Notes: generated by a model not told the origin, from the sequence alone. Numbered from the stretch's first letter, positions 26,129-45,899 are shown. The stretch: 64,000 bases of DNA from Halobacteriovorax sp. GB3 (GCF_028649655.1 NZ_JAQSLN010000001.1:620001-684000), one strand, 5' to 3'. A program made the numbers and translations.

Positions 26129-26278
26129 GTGAACAATTCAAATGCAATTGAAAGAAAAGGAATGACTATGAACAACGTAATGATGAGGTTTCATGACTTA
26201 TACGATAACGATAAATCGCTTAGAGCGAGGAAGAAAAACACTTTTAAAAAATATCAATTTAACGTTAGCAAAGAATGA
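26129..26278 (+). CDS. Possible second upstream ORF overlapping the ABC-F start
   Basis: GTG 26129 sits behind AAGGAG spaced 6-7 and opens 49 codons that run past the ABC-F start in another frame, with in-frame ATGs at 26162 and 26168. Strong initiation here would have ribosomes crossing the ABC-F start, so it may couple or repress ABC-F translation. The peptide has no recognised features and may be non-functional. Confidence 0.3.
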   Translation: MNNSNAIERKGMTMNNVMMRFHDLYDNDKSLRARKKNTFKKYQFNVSKE

Positions 26279-27719
26279 TAGAGTTGCTCTGATTGGTGCC
26301 AATGGTGCAGGCAAGACAACTCTTCTAAGTTATTTAAATAAACATCACTTTGCTAACTCAAGTGCTCTATTGAAGCAGGAGTTAGACAATGCAGTCACAA
26401 TTCAATCACTATTTTTTCCAGATCAAACTGAACTTGGAAAACTTTATTCACTCATTCAAAAAGAAGCGGCCACTCTCGATGATATCCAACGATATGAAGA
26501 ATTGGGAGGCTATCTTTTTGAAGGACGAGTCTTAAACTATCTTGAACAATATGGGTTTTCATTAGAGCGGAAGATCACATCACTTAGTGGAGGCGAGAGA
26601 AAAATTCTTTCTTTAAAAAAGATCGAGTTTCAAGAAAGAGAAATTCTCTTACTAGATGAGCCCACAAATCATATGGATGAACAAAATAGAGAAATTCTAA
26701 AAGAATTTATTCATTCATATCGAGGTTGTATTCTTTGTATATCCCACGATATCGATTTTATCCAAGAATGTTTTCGAAGAACTTGGGTCATTGAGAATGG
26801 GGAAATTGAAGATTACCCTATGAGTGTTAAAGACTACTTTCTTCAAAAAGAGAGAAAGCGAAGAAACAACGAACTTCTAAAAGAAGATTTAAGAAAAAAA
26901 GAAGATATTCTCAAATCGTCTTTTGAAAAAAAGAAAATTGAAGCGACTAAACAGGACTCTTTTAAGCAACCACGATCCATTACAAAAACAGGGAGAGTGT
27001 GTAAAAGGGATGCTGGTGCTGGCTCAGCACAATTTCGAGCTCAGTCTCTTCATAAAGGCACTAAAAGTATAGAGCGATCGCTGGAGATGATTCATGAAAA
27101 GAAGGCCCAACTAAGTTTAGCGAGAGAGCCTAGTTACTCTTTGAATTTAAAAAGCATTTCAAAGTCCAAGGGGCGCTTGATTTCTGTTGAGAGATTTTGC
27201 TTAAAAGAGAAAGAGGGCCTGCTTAGCTTCTCTCTTTCATCAAGTGAGAAAGTTTGGTTACAGGCTCCTAATGCCTGGGGAAAGTCCTCACTGCTAAAGA
27301 TTATTGAGGGAGAAGAAATTCCCTATATTGGTGATGTCTATTCACACAAATCGATGAAAGTGATGAGCTTTAAGCAATTTATCGAGCGTGAAGAACTTCT
27401 TTATAGAAAATTGGACTCTTATGATAAAGAGAAGAGAGAAGAGATTCACACTCTTTACTGCTCTTGGGGAGGAGAGTTCTTATCGCTTAAAAATCGAGAG
27501 CAGCTCTCATCGGGTCAAAAGGTTAAGCTATGGATGGCCATGGCCTCTATCTCACAATATGACCTTCTTCTTTTTGATGAACCAGAGAGTCATTTAGACT
27601 TGTTTTCAAGAAGAATGCTTGAGAGTTTTATGAAAAATTATCAAGGAGCGATTCTTTTGATTACCCATGATACCAGTATAGTTGATTCGAGTGTTTTTAC
27701 TAAGGTTGTTCCCTCTTAA
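26193..27719 (+). CDS. ABC-F ribosome-protection ATPase
   Basis: This 508-residue protein has two ABC domains and no membrane part. Domain 1: Walker A GANGAGKTT (35-43), signature SLSGGERK, Walker B LLLDEPTNHMD. The linker between the domains is long, charged and helical (~205-310). Domain 2: a degenerate Walker A (APNAWGKSS), signature LSSGQKVK, Walker B LFDEPESHLD. ABC-F proteins of this size bind the ribosomal E site; the resistance subgroup displaces antibiotics from the peptidyl-transferase centre or exit tunnel. Divergent sequence together with the upstream attenuator favours an antibiotic-resistance role over housekeeping. Its own site (GATGAGG) is modest. The product could instead be a translation factor. 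Confidence 0.85.
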   Translation: MTYTITINRLERGRKTLLKNINLTLAKNDRVALIGANGAGKTTLLSYLNKHHFANSSALLKQELDNAVTIQSLFFPDQTELGKLYSLIQKEAATLDDIQRYEELGGYLFEGRVLNYLEQYGFSLERKITSLSGGERKILSLKKIEFQEREILLLDEPTNHMDEQNREILKEFIHSYRGCILCISHDIDFIQECFRRTWVIENGEIEDYPMSVKDYFLQKERKRRNNELLKEDLRKKEDILKSSFEKKKIEATKQDSFKQPRSITKTGRVCKRDAGAGSAQFRAQSLHKGTKSIERSLEMIHEKKAQLSLAREPSYSLNLKSISKSKGRLISVERFCLKEKEGLLSFSLSSSEKVWLQAPNAWGKSSLLKIIEGEEIPYIGDVYSHKSMKVMSFKQFIEREELLYRKLDSYDKEKREEIHTLYCSWGGEFLSLKNREQLSSGQKVKLWMAMASISQYDLLLFDEPESHLDLFSRRMLESFMKNYQGAILLITHDTSIVDSSVFTKVVPS

Positions 27720-39164: not shown

Positions 39165-39295
39165 TCAACGCTGGCAACTTGGACAATAATAAGTTCCACG
39201 ACCTGCCAGCGTAATTTTCTTCACTTCACTTTTATGGCATAGCCCGCAAGTTTTTTGATAGAAGACAACTAGGTTTGTCACTCCTCGACCTTTCT
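39165..39295 (-). pseudogene. mutM: mutM 3'-end remnant
   Basis: Read on the minus strand, this segment encodes the last ~42 residues of MutM, with the zinc-finger cysteines (KTCGLCHK, YYCPSCQR) and the stop codon. Homology to the intact mutM starts within the KGRGVTN codons and is broken immediately upstream at 39296. It has no start and no upstream coding part. It is the outer partner of the direct repeat around the reverse-transcriptase gene. Confidence 0.9.
39169..39295. repeat. 127-bp direct repeat, left copy
   Basis: It matches 42828-42954 in the same orientation with four mismatches and no gaps (offset 3659). Both copies are the 3' end of mutM. Confidence 0.95.
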
Positions 39296-39393: not shown

Positions 39394-39450
39394 TGATTCT
39401 AGTTAAGCCTGTTTGTGACGATAAGAAAAAGTATCTATACAGGAGTGATA

Positions 39451-42400
39451 ATGAAGTTAAATACTGGATTTGACCTATGGTTATTTAACAATATTAGACG
39501 TTTTTTTCAGCAAGATCCAATCTTCAGAAATTTCAATACTCACGTTATAACAGCTGATTTAAAAAAGAAGATCTGTTCAAAGAATAATTATGAAGAGTTA
39601 TTAAAAAGTTTAGATTCTGAGTTTTATAATTCCAGCTATAAATCGGTAAGAAAAGTTGATGGTGATATTAAATATTATTATGAATATCCAAGCTTAAAGT
39701 TTCAGTTAGAAACTTTAGTCGATGTGTATAAAGAAGCATTGCTAATCCTAAAATCTGAAAACGATTTAACGAGTTATAATTTTTCAGATGATAGCTTCTT
39801 ACAAATTCATGATACGGGTAATATTGAAGAAGAAGAATTTGAGCTTTACAAATATAAAAACTCTTTAGATCGAAATGTATTTGGTAATAAATTGAATAAG
39901 AACACATATCTCTCAAAGATAGATGAAGAAAAAAAAATATCAATAGATAAAACTGAGCGGTTAATTGATCGTGAGAGGTACAAGAATAGTTCAATCAAAC
40001 TAAATTATAAATTTGAATATAACTGTTTCTCTTTCAAAGTTCTTAATGAAATAAAACGAGTCGCAGAAAGTAAAAAAGATGGAATATTTTTTCAAACAGA
40101 TTTAGTTAAGTTCTATCATTGTTTGAAAATTGATCAAATTATTTCATTTTTTAGTCATTTTTATGAAGGACAAAGGTCTCAAAAAATTCGTGAGTCATTA
40201 GAAAAGATTAAAGACCTTTTTCATTTTGATTCATTGCCAATTGGCTGGATATACAGTGGAATTATTTCTAATATCATATTAATAAAATTTTATCAGGAAT
40301 TTCAGATAAAAATCACCTCATCAATTAAAAATGATGAGGTAATGAACCAAGTTCAAAATGTTGAGCTAATCTCTTTTGCAGATGATTTGATATTTATTAT
40401 TGAATTTAAAAAATATTCTAAAGAAACTAGTATAGAGAGTATAACAGATAGGTTGACTTCAATTGTTGAGGAAGTTTTTGTTACAAAACTTTTTTTTCCA
40501 TCTGTGACTTGTCACAAGCCTAATACTGATAAAGTTAAAAGTTTTGTAATAACTAGTGATTTTTCTAAGCTAGCTAATACGAACTTTATGAAATTTGATA
40601 CTGGGACTTATGTTGATGGTGAAGCCGATTGGGGGCACATTGGCTCTCTAATTTCTCCTATTGATAATGATTTAGCACTTAATACAAATGTTGTTTTTGT
40701 ACAGAACTTAAAGCAGATTAAAGATCTTATTAGTGAAGGAACCATAGGTATAGATGATTTCTTAAGTAAATATATTAATATTTTGATTTTTAAGCTTAGT
40801 AATGGTGGGTTAAAATATATTTCTTATATAACAATGGTTGCTTCTGAGGTAATTAAAAATGATGCTGTAAGCAAAACTTTTGACGGAAAAAAGTTTGAAA
40901 GTGTTTTTATGCCGATTACTGAAAAAGTAATTGAAAGTGATATGACCACAGATGTGGTTTTGAAATTTTTAAAAAAGATTTTTGATTTGTTTTATTACGA
41001 GTATCTTGATGAAGAATCATTTTTCAGTGCTTTGAAAATATACTATAAGGTAAGAAATGAGTTTTTTAAAAAGCACGGAGGAAGAAAAAACTTTGTTTTT
41101 GATGTCTTTGAGTCAGAACTAAAGCTTATTTCTATTGTTAGAGGTTTCAAATCAGATTTGAGATTTTATGACGACCATTTCTCAAAACAATTCTATTTAT
41201 CATCATGTTTAACCTTGCCGAATATTGGCAGTGATTCGAATGAATATCATGTTGCGTCGTTAGGCTATATGTTCCGTAGAACCGGCAAAATAAGGTGCTT
41301 CGTAGAGTTATTGTTCGAAAATATGTTTAAACATAGTAGTGATAGGCCAAAATTCAAAGAGAAGATCCGAAGAGTTATAGAGGAAACATTGTATCTTTAT
41401 ATTAATGAACTTTATAGTAAAGAAATGACTTCTTTATTTGGGATGTTATCTGAAACTAGACTGTATGAGACTCTTACGAAAATACTTGAACTCAAGAAAG
41501 GCGAAATAAAGAAATATGGAATATTAGAGTTTCAGACAGAATTAGGTGAATTGATTAATGGTGATATTAATTATTTCAATAAATCGGGGTCAAGCGATGA
41601 GAAGATCCTGAATTTAATGATTCTCGCATTATTTTATCTCGTCGCAGATAATGATGAACGCTCCGCTGTACTAAGTTTTTGGCTACGAAATTTAGAGAAA
41701 AAGTCTCTGATTAATTGGCCCGTTGAAGCAAGGCTGGTCAATGGTAATTTCGATCTCATTCATACGTTTATTCGCAAGTTATTTTTTAGTAAGACTAATG
41801 AACTACACGATAAGAGCTATGTAGAAAGCTTATTAGAAATACTTGCAGTTAAAATTGAGGAGTTAAGTTATTTTAGAGAAAAGAGAAACGGTTTAGAGAT
41901 TATTGATTTAGACTATATTTTAAAAAACTATAATAAGGCTTATTTTAAAAACTTGAATAAAGATATTAAACTGTCAATTTGTAGGATCGGTATAGATTGG
42001 AAAAATGATATTCATAGTATGCAGTTTAACTCATTAAGTAGAGAAAGAATTAATACAAAAATATTGAATAGTATTTCTTCCGCTATAAAAGATAATACGG
42101 ATATTATAATTATACCTGAGCTTACTTTACCAAGGAAATATCTTCATAAATATTTATCTTACGTTGCTTCTTTTAATAAAATATTAATCGCAGGATTAGA
42201 ATATAGGCTTGTGAAAAGTGGGAATGCTTATAATCAAACAATTATCTCTATTCCAACTAAGTCTAAAAATATTGATGGAAGTACCTATCATTGTTTTATT
42301 CAGACTAAGCGGTACCCTGCTACTGACGAAGCTTTAGAAATAAGACGTTTAGAACTAAATTATGTTGAAGGAACAAATCAGTTCTTGTTTCGTTCTTCGA

Positions 42401-42810
42401 AGTGGCAAAATTTTTCAGTTTTAACATGCTCAGATTTTTTATCAACGACTTTGAAAAGTGAATTAAAGGGACGAATACAAACACTATTCGTACCTGCTCA
42501 AAACTATGACAGTACAACTTATACACATTTAGCTGAATCTGCATTAAGAGAGTTATACTGTTATTGTGTAATTTGCAATAATAATAAGATGGGGAGTTCT
42601 GGTGTTTATGCTCCATATAGAGATGCATATAAGAGAGAACTTTTTAAAATATCTGGAGAATCATTGCCGAATACAAATACTGTAACTATACAACCGAGTG
42701 TAATAGATCTTATCCAAAGTAACTGTAACCGTAATATTCACTTTAAAACTCATAACAAATTGAAAATCTGGAAACAACTTCCACCTGACTGGAAAAAGAA
42801 GTCTGGGTAG
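39451..42810 (+). CDS. Defence reverse transcriptase-nitrilase fusion (DRT type 1/UG1-like)
   Basis: From ATG 39451 (AGGAG site; the frame opens 12 codons earlier at a GTG) the protein has 1119 residues. The N-terminal third is a reverse transcriptase: D217 in FQTDLVKFYH and the paired D311-D312 in SFADDLIF make the catalytic triad. The middle ~500 residues are helical and unassigned. Residues ~860-1090 are a carbon-nitrogen hydrolase with the triad E890 (IPELTL), K953 (QTKRYPA) and C993 (LTCSDF). RT plus C-terminal nitrilase in one chain is the architecture called DRT1 or UG1, known to give phage resistance. It is alone in a 3.5-kb insert between two mutM 3' ends and is richer in A/T-ending codons than its neighbours, which suggests transfer. 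Confidence 0.9.
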   Translation: MKLNTGFDLWLFNNIRRFFQQDPIFRNFNTHVITADLKKKICSKNNYEELLKSLDSEFYNSSYKSVRKVDGDIKYYYEYPSLKFQLETLVDVYKEALLILKSENDLTSYNFSDDSFLQIHDTGNIEEEEFELYKYKNSLDRNVFGNKLNKNTYLSKIDEEKKISIDKTERLIDRERYKNSSIKLNYKFEYNCFSFKVLNEIKRVAESKKDGIFFQTDLVKFYHCLKIDQIISFFSHFYEGQRSQKIRESLEKIKDLFHFDSLPIGWIYSGIISNIILIKFYQEFQIKITSSIKNDEVMNQVQNVELISFADDLIFIIEFKKYSKETSIESITDRLTSIVEEVFVTKLFFPSVTCHKPNTDKVKSFVITSDFSKLANTNFMKFDTGTYVDGEADWGHIGSLISPIDNDLALNTNVVFVQNLKQIKDLISEGTIGIDDFLSKYINILIFKLSNGGLKYISYITMVASEVIKNDAVSKTFDGKKFESVFMPITEKVIESDMTTDVVLKFLKKIFDLFYYEYLDEESFFSALKIYYKVRNEFFKKHGGRKNFVFDVFESELKLISIVRGFKSDLRFYDDHFSKQFYLSSCLTLPNIGSDSNEYHVASLGYMFRRTGKIRCFVELLFENMFKHSSDRPKFKEKIRRVIEETLYLYINELYSKEMTSLFGMLSETRLYETLTKILELKKGEIKKYGILEFQTELGELINGDINYFNKSGSSDEKILNLMILALFYLVADNDERSAVLSFWLRNLEKKSLINWPVEARLVNGNFDLIHTFIRKLFFSKTNELHDKSYVESLLEILAVKIEELSYFREKRNGLEIIDLDYILKNYNKAYFKNLNKDIKLSICRIGIDWKNDIHSMQFNSLSRERINTKILNSISSAIKDNTDIIIIPELTLPRKYLHKYLSYVASFNKILIAGLEYRLVKSGNAYNQTIISIPTKSKNIDGSTYHCFIQTKRYPATDEALEIRRLELNYVEGTNQFLFRSSKWQNFSVLTCSDFLSTTLKSELKGRIQTLFVPAQNYDSTTYTHLAESALRELYCYCVICNNNKMGSSGVYAPYRDAYKRELFKISGESLPNTNTVTIQPSVIDLIQSNCNRNIHFKTHNKLKIWKQLPPDWKKKSG

Positions 42811-42823
42811 CATTTTTTTACTT

Positions 42824-43639
42824 CTAGCGCTGGCAAGTTGGACAATAATAAGTTCCACGACCTGCCAGCGTAATTTTCTTCACTTCACTTTTATGGCATA
42901 GCCCGCAAATCTTTTGATAGAACACAACTAGGTTTGTCACTCCTCGACCTTTCTCTCCATAAGCATCGGCATAGCCCCCAGAAAAAGTCGTTCCACCAGT
43001 TTCAATAGAATCATCAAGAACCATCTTCGTCGCCTGCAAAAGATTACTAAGATCATTTTTCGTAAGCGTTTTCATTTTTCTCGTAGGTCTAATGCCCGCG
43101 CGCGCACAAATTTCCGAGGCCATATAATTACCTACACCTGAAAAGAAATTCTGCTCCAAAAGAAAAGGCTTAATCACTTTCATAGGCCTTTCTTTTTTAA
43201 GCTTCAAAAGATACTCAAGTGTAAATTCCAAACTCGATACATCCGGCCCAAGCCGCTCTAGCCAATTCGCCTCATGCTCTTCAGTCAAAAAATGCATATT
43301 CCCAAATCGTCTCGGATCAACATAGCCAAGATAAAGAGGCCCATCCGCATTTTCACCTACAAGTTGAACATGCGTATGTTTCACATCAATCCACTCTTTA
43401 GAAATACGCCACGACCCACTCATGCCAAGTCCTGAAATCACACGCAACTCATCCTCAAAAAAGAAACGCAAAACCTTTCCTTTTCTTTCTACTTTTAAAA
43501 GTTCTTTTCCCTTCGCTGAAAAATCTTTGTCTTTAACGATTGAGTCGGAGACATTTGAGAAATGAACTTCTTTCACTTTCATCGGGAGGACTTTGTTTAG
43601 TTGGGACTTGATGGTTTCAACTTCCGGTAGCTCAGGGAT
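42824..43639 (-). CDS. mutM: Formamidopyrimidine-DNA glycosylase with apparent ATC start
   Basis: The frame continues 19 codons upstream of the first ATG (43582). It begins with PELPEVET at 43636, which is the invariant N-terminus of Fpg, where Pro is the catalytic nucleophile and Glu the next catalytic residue. The codon in the Met position (43637-43639) is ATC, with AAGGAG seven bases upstream. From there the protein has 271 residues, the normal length. It also has YVDPRRFG, QNFFSGVGNYMASEIC (helix-two-turn-helix) and the CGLC...CPTC zinc finger. Either ATC initiates, or the start was lost and the enzyme is inactive: starting at 43582 would delete the catalytic residues. Its 3' end belongs to the direct repeat around the RT gene. 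Confidence 0.85.
   Translation of the reverse strand: MPELPEVETIKSQLNKVLPMKVKEVHFSNVSDSIVKDKDFSAKGKELLKVERKGKVLRFFFEDELRVISGLGMSGSWRISKEWIDVKHTHVQLVGENADGPLYLGYVDPRRFGNMHFLTEEHEANWLERLGPDVSSLEFTLEYLLKLKKERPMKVIKPFLLEQNFFSGVGNYMASEICARAGIRPTRKMKTLTKNDLSNLLQATKMVLDDSIETGGTTFSGGYADAYGEKGRGVTNLVVFYQKICGLCHKSEVKKITLAGRGTYYCPTCQR
42828..42954. repeat. 127-bp direct repeat, right copy
   Basis: It is the 3' end of the intact mutM and matches 39169-39295 with four mismatches. The two copies bracket the reverse-transcriptase gene. Confidence 0.95.
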
Positions 43640-45291: not shown

Positions 45292-45609
45292 TTGATTGAA
45301 AGGCCTAGTGGTTTAGAAGCTGTTGAAGTTAATATTGAGTTTAATTTTCTAAACTATACAAAGTTAGAGATTGATTTAGCTCATGTAAATAAAGATGGTA
45401 GGTCTTCTTACTCTTGTGAAGATGTTGCTGAGATTGTTTCACATTTGTTAAACGGTCTTAGACTAGAGGCCAGTGATGAAAAAGCATTTGGAGAAGAAAT
45501 ATGCTCTTACTTTGTTAGAAGTGGAGCATTTGAAGAAAAGAATTATAAACTGGTTTTTTGTATATGTAGTGATAGACCAGAATCAATTGGAGTAATAACA
45601 CTCCATTGA
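45292..45609 (+). CDS. Type II toxin-like protein of a toxin-antitoxin pair
   Basis: TTG 45292 has an AAGG site and gives 105 residues. The pattern of strands with a closing NYKLVFCICSDRPESIGVITLH block resembles RelE/HigB-type or Gp49-like toxins, in which a final strand reads YRLVF...IGIIT. The gene lies directly before an XRE antitoxin, toxin first as in higBA. No catalytic residues can be named, so the toxin role rests on the context. Confidence 0.6.
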   Translation: MIERPSGLEAVEVNIEFNFLNYTKLEIDLAHVNKDGRSSYSCEDVAEIVSHLLNGLRLEASDEKAFGEEICSYFVRSGAFEEKNYKLVFCICSDRPESIGVITLH

Positions 45610-45620
45610 GTGAGGTAAGT

Positions 45621-45899
45621 ATGAACCCTTATGAAGTAGACATTGATAAACTACAAGAGTCTAAAGAAGTTAAAGATGAGAAGGAGCTTCTTAAACTTAA
45701 ACTTGTTTCAGCTTTTTTAAAGGCTACTTCTTCTATGTCATCTGAAGAGATTATTTCTCTTACTGGTCTTCATAAGTCTGATCTTTCAAGACTTCGCTCG
45801 ATGAGTGTTAAGAGGTTTACGATTGATAAGATTGTAGGGCTTCTTGATGACCTTGGGTTTTCTACTAAGATTGATGTTGAGAGGAAGGAAGCATCATGA
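45621..45899 (+). CDS. XRE-family antitoxin (HTH_37-like)
   Basis: ATG 45621 with a GAGG site starts 11 bp after the toxin stop. The 92-residue protein has a helix-turn-helix (SSEEIISLTGLHKSDLSRLR) and the C-terminal SVKRFTIDKIVGLLDDLGF that marks the HTH_37/COG5606 antitoxins. It probably binds the palindrome at 45241. Its stop overlaps the start of the hydrolase gene. A truncated, mutated copy of its 3' half lies at 57743. Confidence 0.8.
   Translation: MNPYEVDIDKLQESKEVKDEKELLKLKLVSAFLKATSSMSSEEIISLTGLHKSDLSRLRSMSVKRFTIDKIVGLLDDLGFSTKIDVERKEAS

Follow-up and report, generated by a model that had tools for sequence, protein, structure and literature searches.

DRT1 (UG1, Drt1a; structure 9YFD) carries a reverse transcriptase (RT), a helical repeat and a C-terminal nitrilase in one chain, is usually encoded by one gene and has no RNA partner. 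It was solved in June 2026 (PMC13275509): untemplated DNA is made on residue S402, and the adducts allow the formation of tetramers and filaments, RT-dead DRT1 being monomeric; abortive infection needs both the RT and the nitrilase (PMC13275509). The swapped C terminus covers the nitrilase pocket of the neighbouring subunit as an essential active-site lid, and defence is abolished by K1219A, A1223F and tail deletions (PMC13275509). The numbering of this tail (K1219-T-Q-P-A1223-G) was placed here from the residues named in that paper and the C terminus of a genuine Photobacterium DRT1 (L048). The original prediction, made for the gene described below, held that the mechanism of DRT type 1 is incompletely known; this is now true only in part, still applying to the nitrilase substrate.

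DNA synthesis is template-free and protein-primed in the class-3 DRTs (DRT1, DRT5S, and DRT5L), although S402 is not conserved in the other members of this class, and it is also untemplated and protein-primed in the class 1 proteins AbiA, AbiK, and Abi-P2 (PMC13275509). The latter resemble the protein studied here in their RT fold, helical repeats and Foldseek matches to its model, but lack a nitrilase domain. The UG5-nitrilase RTs (PADLOC PDLC03780 and PDLC02995) have the same domain order as this protein.

The window, i.e., the whole 64,000-nucleotide stretch of Halobacteriovorax sp. GB3 DNA that was analyzed, contains an RT-nitrilase fusion gene (39451..42810, plus strand), an intact open reading frame with an ATG start coding for 1119 amino acids. 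A Shine-Dalgarno sequence, AGGAG, is located at normal spacing before the start codon (39441-39445). The G+C content of the gene is 29% (24% at third codon positions) vs. 34–44% in most neighboring genes. The RT domain (approximately residues 165–420; 39943..40710, plus strand) is recognized by Pfam RVT_1, with a match above the Pfam cut-off at residues 185–335, and by Foldseek matches to Abi/DRT RTs. The nitrilase-superfamily domain (approximately residues 836–1119; 41956..42807, plus strand) is indicated by PADLOC, by its domain model and by Foldseek; the PADLOC nitrilase-bearing models match residues 804–1115 (E 1.9e-51 and 1.8e-46). Between them lies a middle domain of about 400 residues (approximately residues 409–808; 40675..41874, plus strand), predicted with low confidence by AlphaFold and DSSP to be all-helical, with about 20 helices; in DRT1 this position is occupied by an alpha-helical repeat domain (PMC13275509). 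A single 1119-residue chain joining an RT and a nitrilase through a helical middle, as originally proposed, is confirmed by these results, and the protein has the multidomain make-up of class 3 of the UG/Abi RTs, in which the RT is combined with a nitrilase or a phosphohydrolase.

The whole-chain AlphaFold model is weak (pLDDT 59, pTM 0.38), with pLDDT values mostly of 65–87 in the RT and nitrilase cores and below 50 in much of the middle, while the model of the nitrilase domain alone is usable (pTM 0.80). Foldseek searches of the PDB with the latter retrieved nitrilase-superfamily amidases (E 7e-12), and those with the whole-protein model retrieved AbiA, Abi-P2, AbiK, DRT4, DRT6, and DRT9. 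The Abi/DRT structures ranked on top, with group II intron RTs close after them, and RT profile scores were weak throughout. In a search of the PDB with the profile of the lineage defined below, DRT1 9YFD was the sole relevant solved structure, with the RT (200–345) and nitrilase (1012–1100) regions matched in the same order.

The catalytic residues of both domains are intact, and none of them varies among the six divergent members of the lineage. In the RT these are the motif A aspartate D217 of QTDL (40099..40101) and the motif C aspartates of F309-A-D311-D312 (40375..40386), a FADD motif replaced by YVDD in the other members; the triad D217, D311-D312 was checked residue by residue and is complete, as claimed before. 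The nitrilase triad, also claimed before, comprises the catalytic glutamate E890 (42118..42120), the catalytic lysine K953 and the nucleophile C993 (42427..42429), which is aligned to C1116 of DRT1. A second glutamate, E960 (42307..42330, together with K953), completes the tetrad E890, K953, E960, and C993, so that the Glu-Lys-Cys pocket is whole. The C-terminal tail KQLPPDW (K1108–W1114; 42772..42792) is the counterpart of the DRT1 lid K1219-TQPAGF: K1108-P1111-P1112 are aligned with K1219...A1223, although the position of A1223 is a proline and is not identical. All these features are on the plus strand. The nitrilase tetrad and the C-terminal K-x-x-P tail are common to all three RT-nitrilase lineages. 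A C-terminal K-x-x-P-x-[GDN] motif occurs at the same position in all 15 proteins compared, the lysine being conserved in every one and the following proline in 14, with serine in the remaining protein; the UG5-nitrilase tail, F-K-P-x-P-x-G-F, is likened to that of the window protein. The architecture, active sites, lid-like tail and match to DRT1 9YFD support an RT-nitrilase fusion of the phage-defense kind, as was originally supposed.

Assignment of the protein to UG1/DRT1, the central claim of the original prediction, is not upheld. The search with UG1/DRT1 profiles, set beforehand as the refuting test, gave RT_UG5-nitrilase as the best PADLOC match (173 bits), with 71 bits for UG1 Drt1a, and since the best match is to a non-UG1 clade, the UG1 label is wrong. 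The UG1 profile matches only parts of the window protein, weakly in the RT and nitrilase, with 28 bits across the RT part, whereas the Photobacterium reference L048, which scores 1705 bits against 9YFD, reaches 1317 bits on one Drt1a model and 1890 bits on the other. Grouping of the window protein with UG1 is rejected in the AU test (p 5.65e-5 for the RT, 0.033 for the nitrilase and 4.3e-9 for the full length), and motif B is PIGW rather than PQG, or the PQGL of DRT1. That the protein is a genuine UG1/DRT1 member, to which the same order of domains, active sites identical in kind and the weak profile match could point, is therefore extremely improbable, the more so as the lineage lacks S402.

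A divergent UG5-nitrilase member is a better but still improbable candidate. Apart from the top profile score, the nitrilase tree places the lineage on the UG5 side (support 100/100), and the AU test leaves room for this grouping in the nitrilase (p 0.11); by profile score, the UG5 nitrilase is the nearest to that of the window protein, and on these sequence comparisons the nitrilase half is closer to UG5 than to UG1. The RT_UG5-nitrilase match, however, has its best stretch at residues 804–1115, nearly all nitrilase, while the genuine UG5 references (L018, L019, L025, and L027) score 700–1030 bits on PDLC03780 over their full length, and the RT and full-length trees reject the grouping (AU p 7.8e-5 and 4.2e-9). 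The lineage, represented by seven rows, stays together in all trees (100/100 for the RT, 100/100 for the full length and 90/95 for the nitrilase). NCBIfam contains no model for the window protein and gives its relatives only weak generic RT matches; none of the many UG/Abi survey groups carried by PADLOC fits the lineage. UG6, another nitrilase-linked RT class, was considered and dropped, with no match to the window protein at E 0.1. Judged from sequence, the protein belongs to a third RT-nitrilase lineage, neither UG1/DRT1 nor UG5, which is unnamed in the libraries searched and may be named in the 2022 UG/Abi survey.

The lineage also differs in the region where DRT1 is primed. The low-confidence loop of residues 374–413 (40570..40689, plus strand; pLDDT 32–49) is at the position of the unresolved DRT1 priming loop containing S402, and no serine, threonine or tyrosine within it is invariant among the lineage members, leaving S402 without a counterpart. 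Since the other class-3 DRTs do not conserve S402 either, this argues against UG1 membership and not against the mechanism. The tyrosines Y79 and Y456 are invariant in the lineage and absent from UG1 and most UG5 proteins; they can be regarded as candidate priming residues only. In the aligned UG5 proteins, but not in the window lineage, the RT is followed by an invariant S-E-x-R motif (L019 103-3309, residues 404–407, with equivalents in L018, L025, and L027); located at the position of the DRT1 priming loop, it possibly provides the priming serine of UG5.

When 369 Bdellovibrionota genomes and plasmids were searched at the protein level, five full-length relatives with 26–28% identity emerged, encoded in genomes G020 (locus L021), G191 (L022), G145 (L023), and G039 (L024) and on Leptospira plasmids (L017). 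By profile search, five of the 369 genomes carry the lineage, including that of the window. Profile scans of genome and viral contigs gave loci L043–L047, and single-sequence scans of the same contigs found no further relatives. IMG/VR adds two records; L047, the one selected for comparison, shares 94% identity with the Leptospira protein; the INPHARED phages contain no match to the window protein. The congeneric genome G002 lacks the gene, as do nearly all relatives. In G191 a gene for an Eco57I-type restriction-modification protein (L022 3598-6879) is located upstream of the RT-nitrilase gene, which places this copy in a defense neighborhood. The occurrence in five of 369 genomes and on Leptospira plasmids, the low G+C content, the flanking repeats described below and one restriction-modification neighbor show a patchy and mobile lineage. 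In G020 the RT-nitrilase gene is preceded by an endonuclease/exonuclease/phosphatase-family gene and a DUF6973 gene and followed by a DUF2971 gene (L021 6353-7488, 11132-12064); these neighbors are possible alternative partners.

A gene for a DEDDh 3′-5′ exonuclease adjoins the RT gene in four of six independent loci. In Leptospira (L017) and in a Bdellovibrionaceae MAG (L022) it directly follows the RT gene in the same orientation, with gaps of 11 and 21 nt, respectively, and the two exonucleases are 36% identical; in L023 and L024 it is located just upstream in divergent orientation, the products sharing 35% identity. Each of the four belongs to RNase_T (DEDDh), and they resemble one another in a C-terminal segment with the pattern G-[FY]-x-W-[NS]-P. 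The L023 enzyme scores above the cut-off of NF006615, of the NF006615/PRK09182 DEDDh subfamily, and the L022 enzyme has a sub-threshold DUF5710 match. With two to three recognizable exonuclease homologues per host genome, chance adjacency in three of the five Bdellovibrionota loci would have a probability, by rough estimate, of about 1e-7 or less. None of the UG1 and UG5 loci inspected has an exonuclease annotated beside its RT gene, and no association of a DEDDh exonuclease with an RT-nitrilase was found in the literature or families searched. Unlike DRT1, the window locus has no drt1b gene; its relatives have the exonuclease gene instead. The window and G020 loci are without an exonuclease partner, so the original description of a single-gene system with no accessory gene suits the window locus but is atypical of the lineage. 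The window genome encodes a related exonuclease elsewhere (G000:C3:795920-796612; 34–36% identity to the L022 enzyme), which is conserved at 69–78% in relatives without the RT gene.

The RT-nitrilase gene has apparently been inserted behind fpg/mutM, encoding DNA-formamidopyrimidine glycosylase (42824..43639, minus strand). The 3′ end of the intact fpg forms the right copy of a 127-bp direct repeat (42828..42954, minus strand), and the left copy (39169..39295, minus strand; detected by tblastn) is a 97% identical remnant with the duplicated last 42 fpg codons and its own stop. The interval from repeat start to repeat start is 3659 bp and holds nothing besides the RT-nitrilase gene and the 154 bp that precede it. 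The order of the upstream gene 34524 and fpg is kept in G002, G047, and G042, where the two are separated by 3.4–3.8 kb with varying gene content; in the window they are 6.9 kb apart, or 3.3 kb without the element. No other fpg 3′ remnants were found among 129 family genomes; a partial fpg copy in G100 proved to be a contig end and not a duplication. The single variable residue (T/I) that might tell the original repeat occurs in both variants in relatives. The arrangement suggests that the element either integrated at the 3′ end of fpg or entered it by a single crossover; no recombinase is present, and the literature consulted offered nothing relevant on integration at fpg.

Two further observations concern the vicinity of fpg. 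Its apparent start codon is ATC (43637-43639; I-P-E-L-P-E-V), 7 nt after AGGAG, while ATG or GTG is found at this position in the relatives that were compared. The ATC could be a rare start codon, the result of damage to the start or an error of assembly; the proline next to it is required at the N terminus of Fpg. At 45292-45899 (plus strand) there are two small genes coding for 105 amino acids and for 97 amino acids with an antitoxin-like HTH_37 domain. They have 89 and 96% identity, respectively, to two genes directly beside fpg in G042 (L041 9398-10017), whereas the identity of fpg between the window and G042 is only 47%, indicating a recent transfer of this toxin-antitoxin-like pair around the same locus.

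The window is otherwise ordinary chromosome, with no defense island around the RT-nitrilase gene. PADLOC found no convincing defense gene among the 41 other window proteins, only weak housekeeping-type matches; the best of them, mad3 at 26193-27719 (7e-34), is identified by Pfam as an ABC-F-like ATPase. This lack of other defense genes, together with the repair function of the neighboring fpg, could suggest a cellular enzyme, for example a sensor of DNA damage or of the nucleotide pool, placed behind fpg by chance. Such a role is very unlikely given the absence of the gene from nearly all relatives, its low G+C content, insertion signature and plasmid-borne kin; fpg is a housekeeping gene present in 111 of 129 family genomes.

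The surroundings also bear on a retron- or DRT2/DRT9-like activity, in which the RT would copy a neighboring non-coding RNA and with which the scores of some RT-only segments near retron and generic RT models could be reconciled. The start codon is just 154 nt away from the left repeat, and the stop codon is 17 nt from the right repeat. No Rfam family was detected beside the gene, and RNA folding there is unremarkable (z-score -0.45), giving no sign of an RNA template; nitrilase-bearing DRTs are moreover template-free (PMC13275509). An RNA-copying enzyme is accordingly very unlikely.

Taken together, the RT-nitrilase is quite likely a class-3-like defense RT of the third lineage, most likely acting by abortive infection as in DRT1. 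The intact, invariant active sites, the collinear RT-helical-nitrilase layout, the conserved tail, the match to 9YFD, the lack of signs of an RNA template, the patchy and mobile occurrence and the adjacent exonuclease genes favor this DRT1-like reading, and the very divergent RT of the lineage, evident from its UG1 profile score and motif B, the missing S402 counterpart, the weak whole-chain model and the absence of a defense island at the window copy speak against it. The architecture, active sites, shared tail, lineage, exonuclease neighborhood and insertion are read from sequence, and to these a mode of action can be added by homology to DRT1. The RT would make short untemplated single-stranded DNA primed on the protein itself. 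The DNA adducts would cause the nitrilase domains to assemble into tetramers or filaments and keep them closed, with the KQLPPDW tail serving as the lid. Phage replication activity on single-stranded DNA may then disturb the adduct and open the lid, upon which the nitrilase would consume an essential metabolite (an amide, amine or nitrile), bringing growth to a halt.

The role of the exonuclease is speculative. If, as in DRT1, the product is protein-linked single-stranded DNA with an exposed 3′ end, a 3′-5′ exonuclease would be a plausible regulator, and in most loci of the lineage the neighboring DEDDh enzyme probably shortens the adducts or takes them off; the chromosomal relative could stand in for the partner in the window genome. 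A more far-reaching and tentative proposal, to which we give a minority chance, is a third type of RT-nitrilase defense, consisting of the RT-nitrilase and a DEDDh exonuclease. The exonuclease would determine the length of the protein-linked single-stranded DNA that keeps the nitrilase closed, or erase this DNA, and the system would be switched when a phage occupies the DNA end or causes its loss; here the gene would have lost its partner, use the chromosomal exonuclease and move as a one-gene insertion at fpg.

DRT1 is the only RT-nitrilase system with a published mechanism that we found. The lineage described here keeps the RT, nitrilase tetrad and lid and differs at the priming region, and so separates the essentials of the mechanism from the particulars of DRT1. 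The repeated pairing with a 3′-5′ exonuclease points to DNA 3′ end processing within the switch, and the fpg duplication provides a clean example of a one-gene defense unit entering a Bdellovibrionota chromosome.
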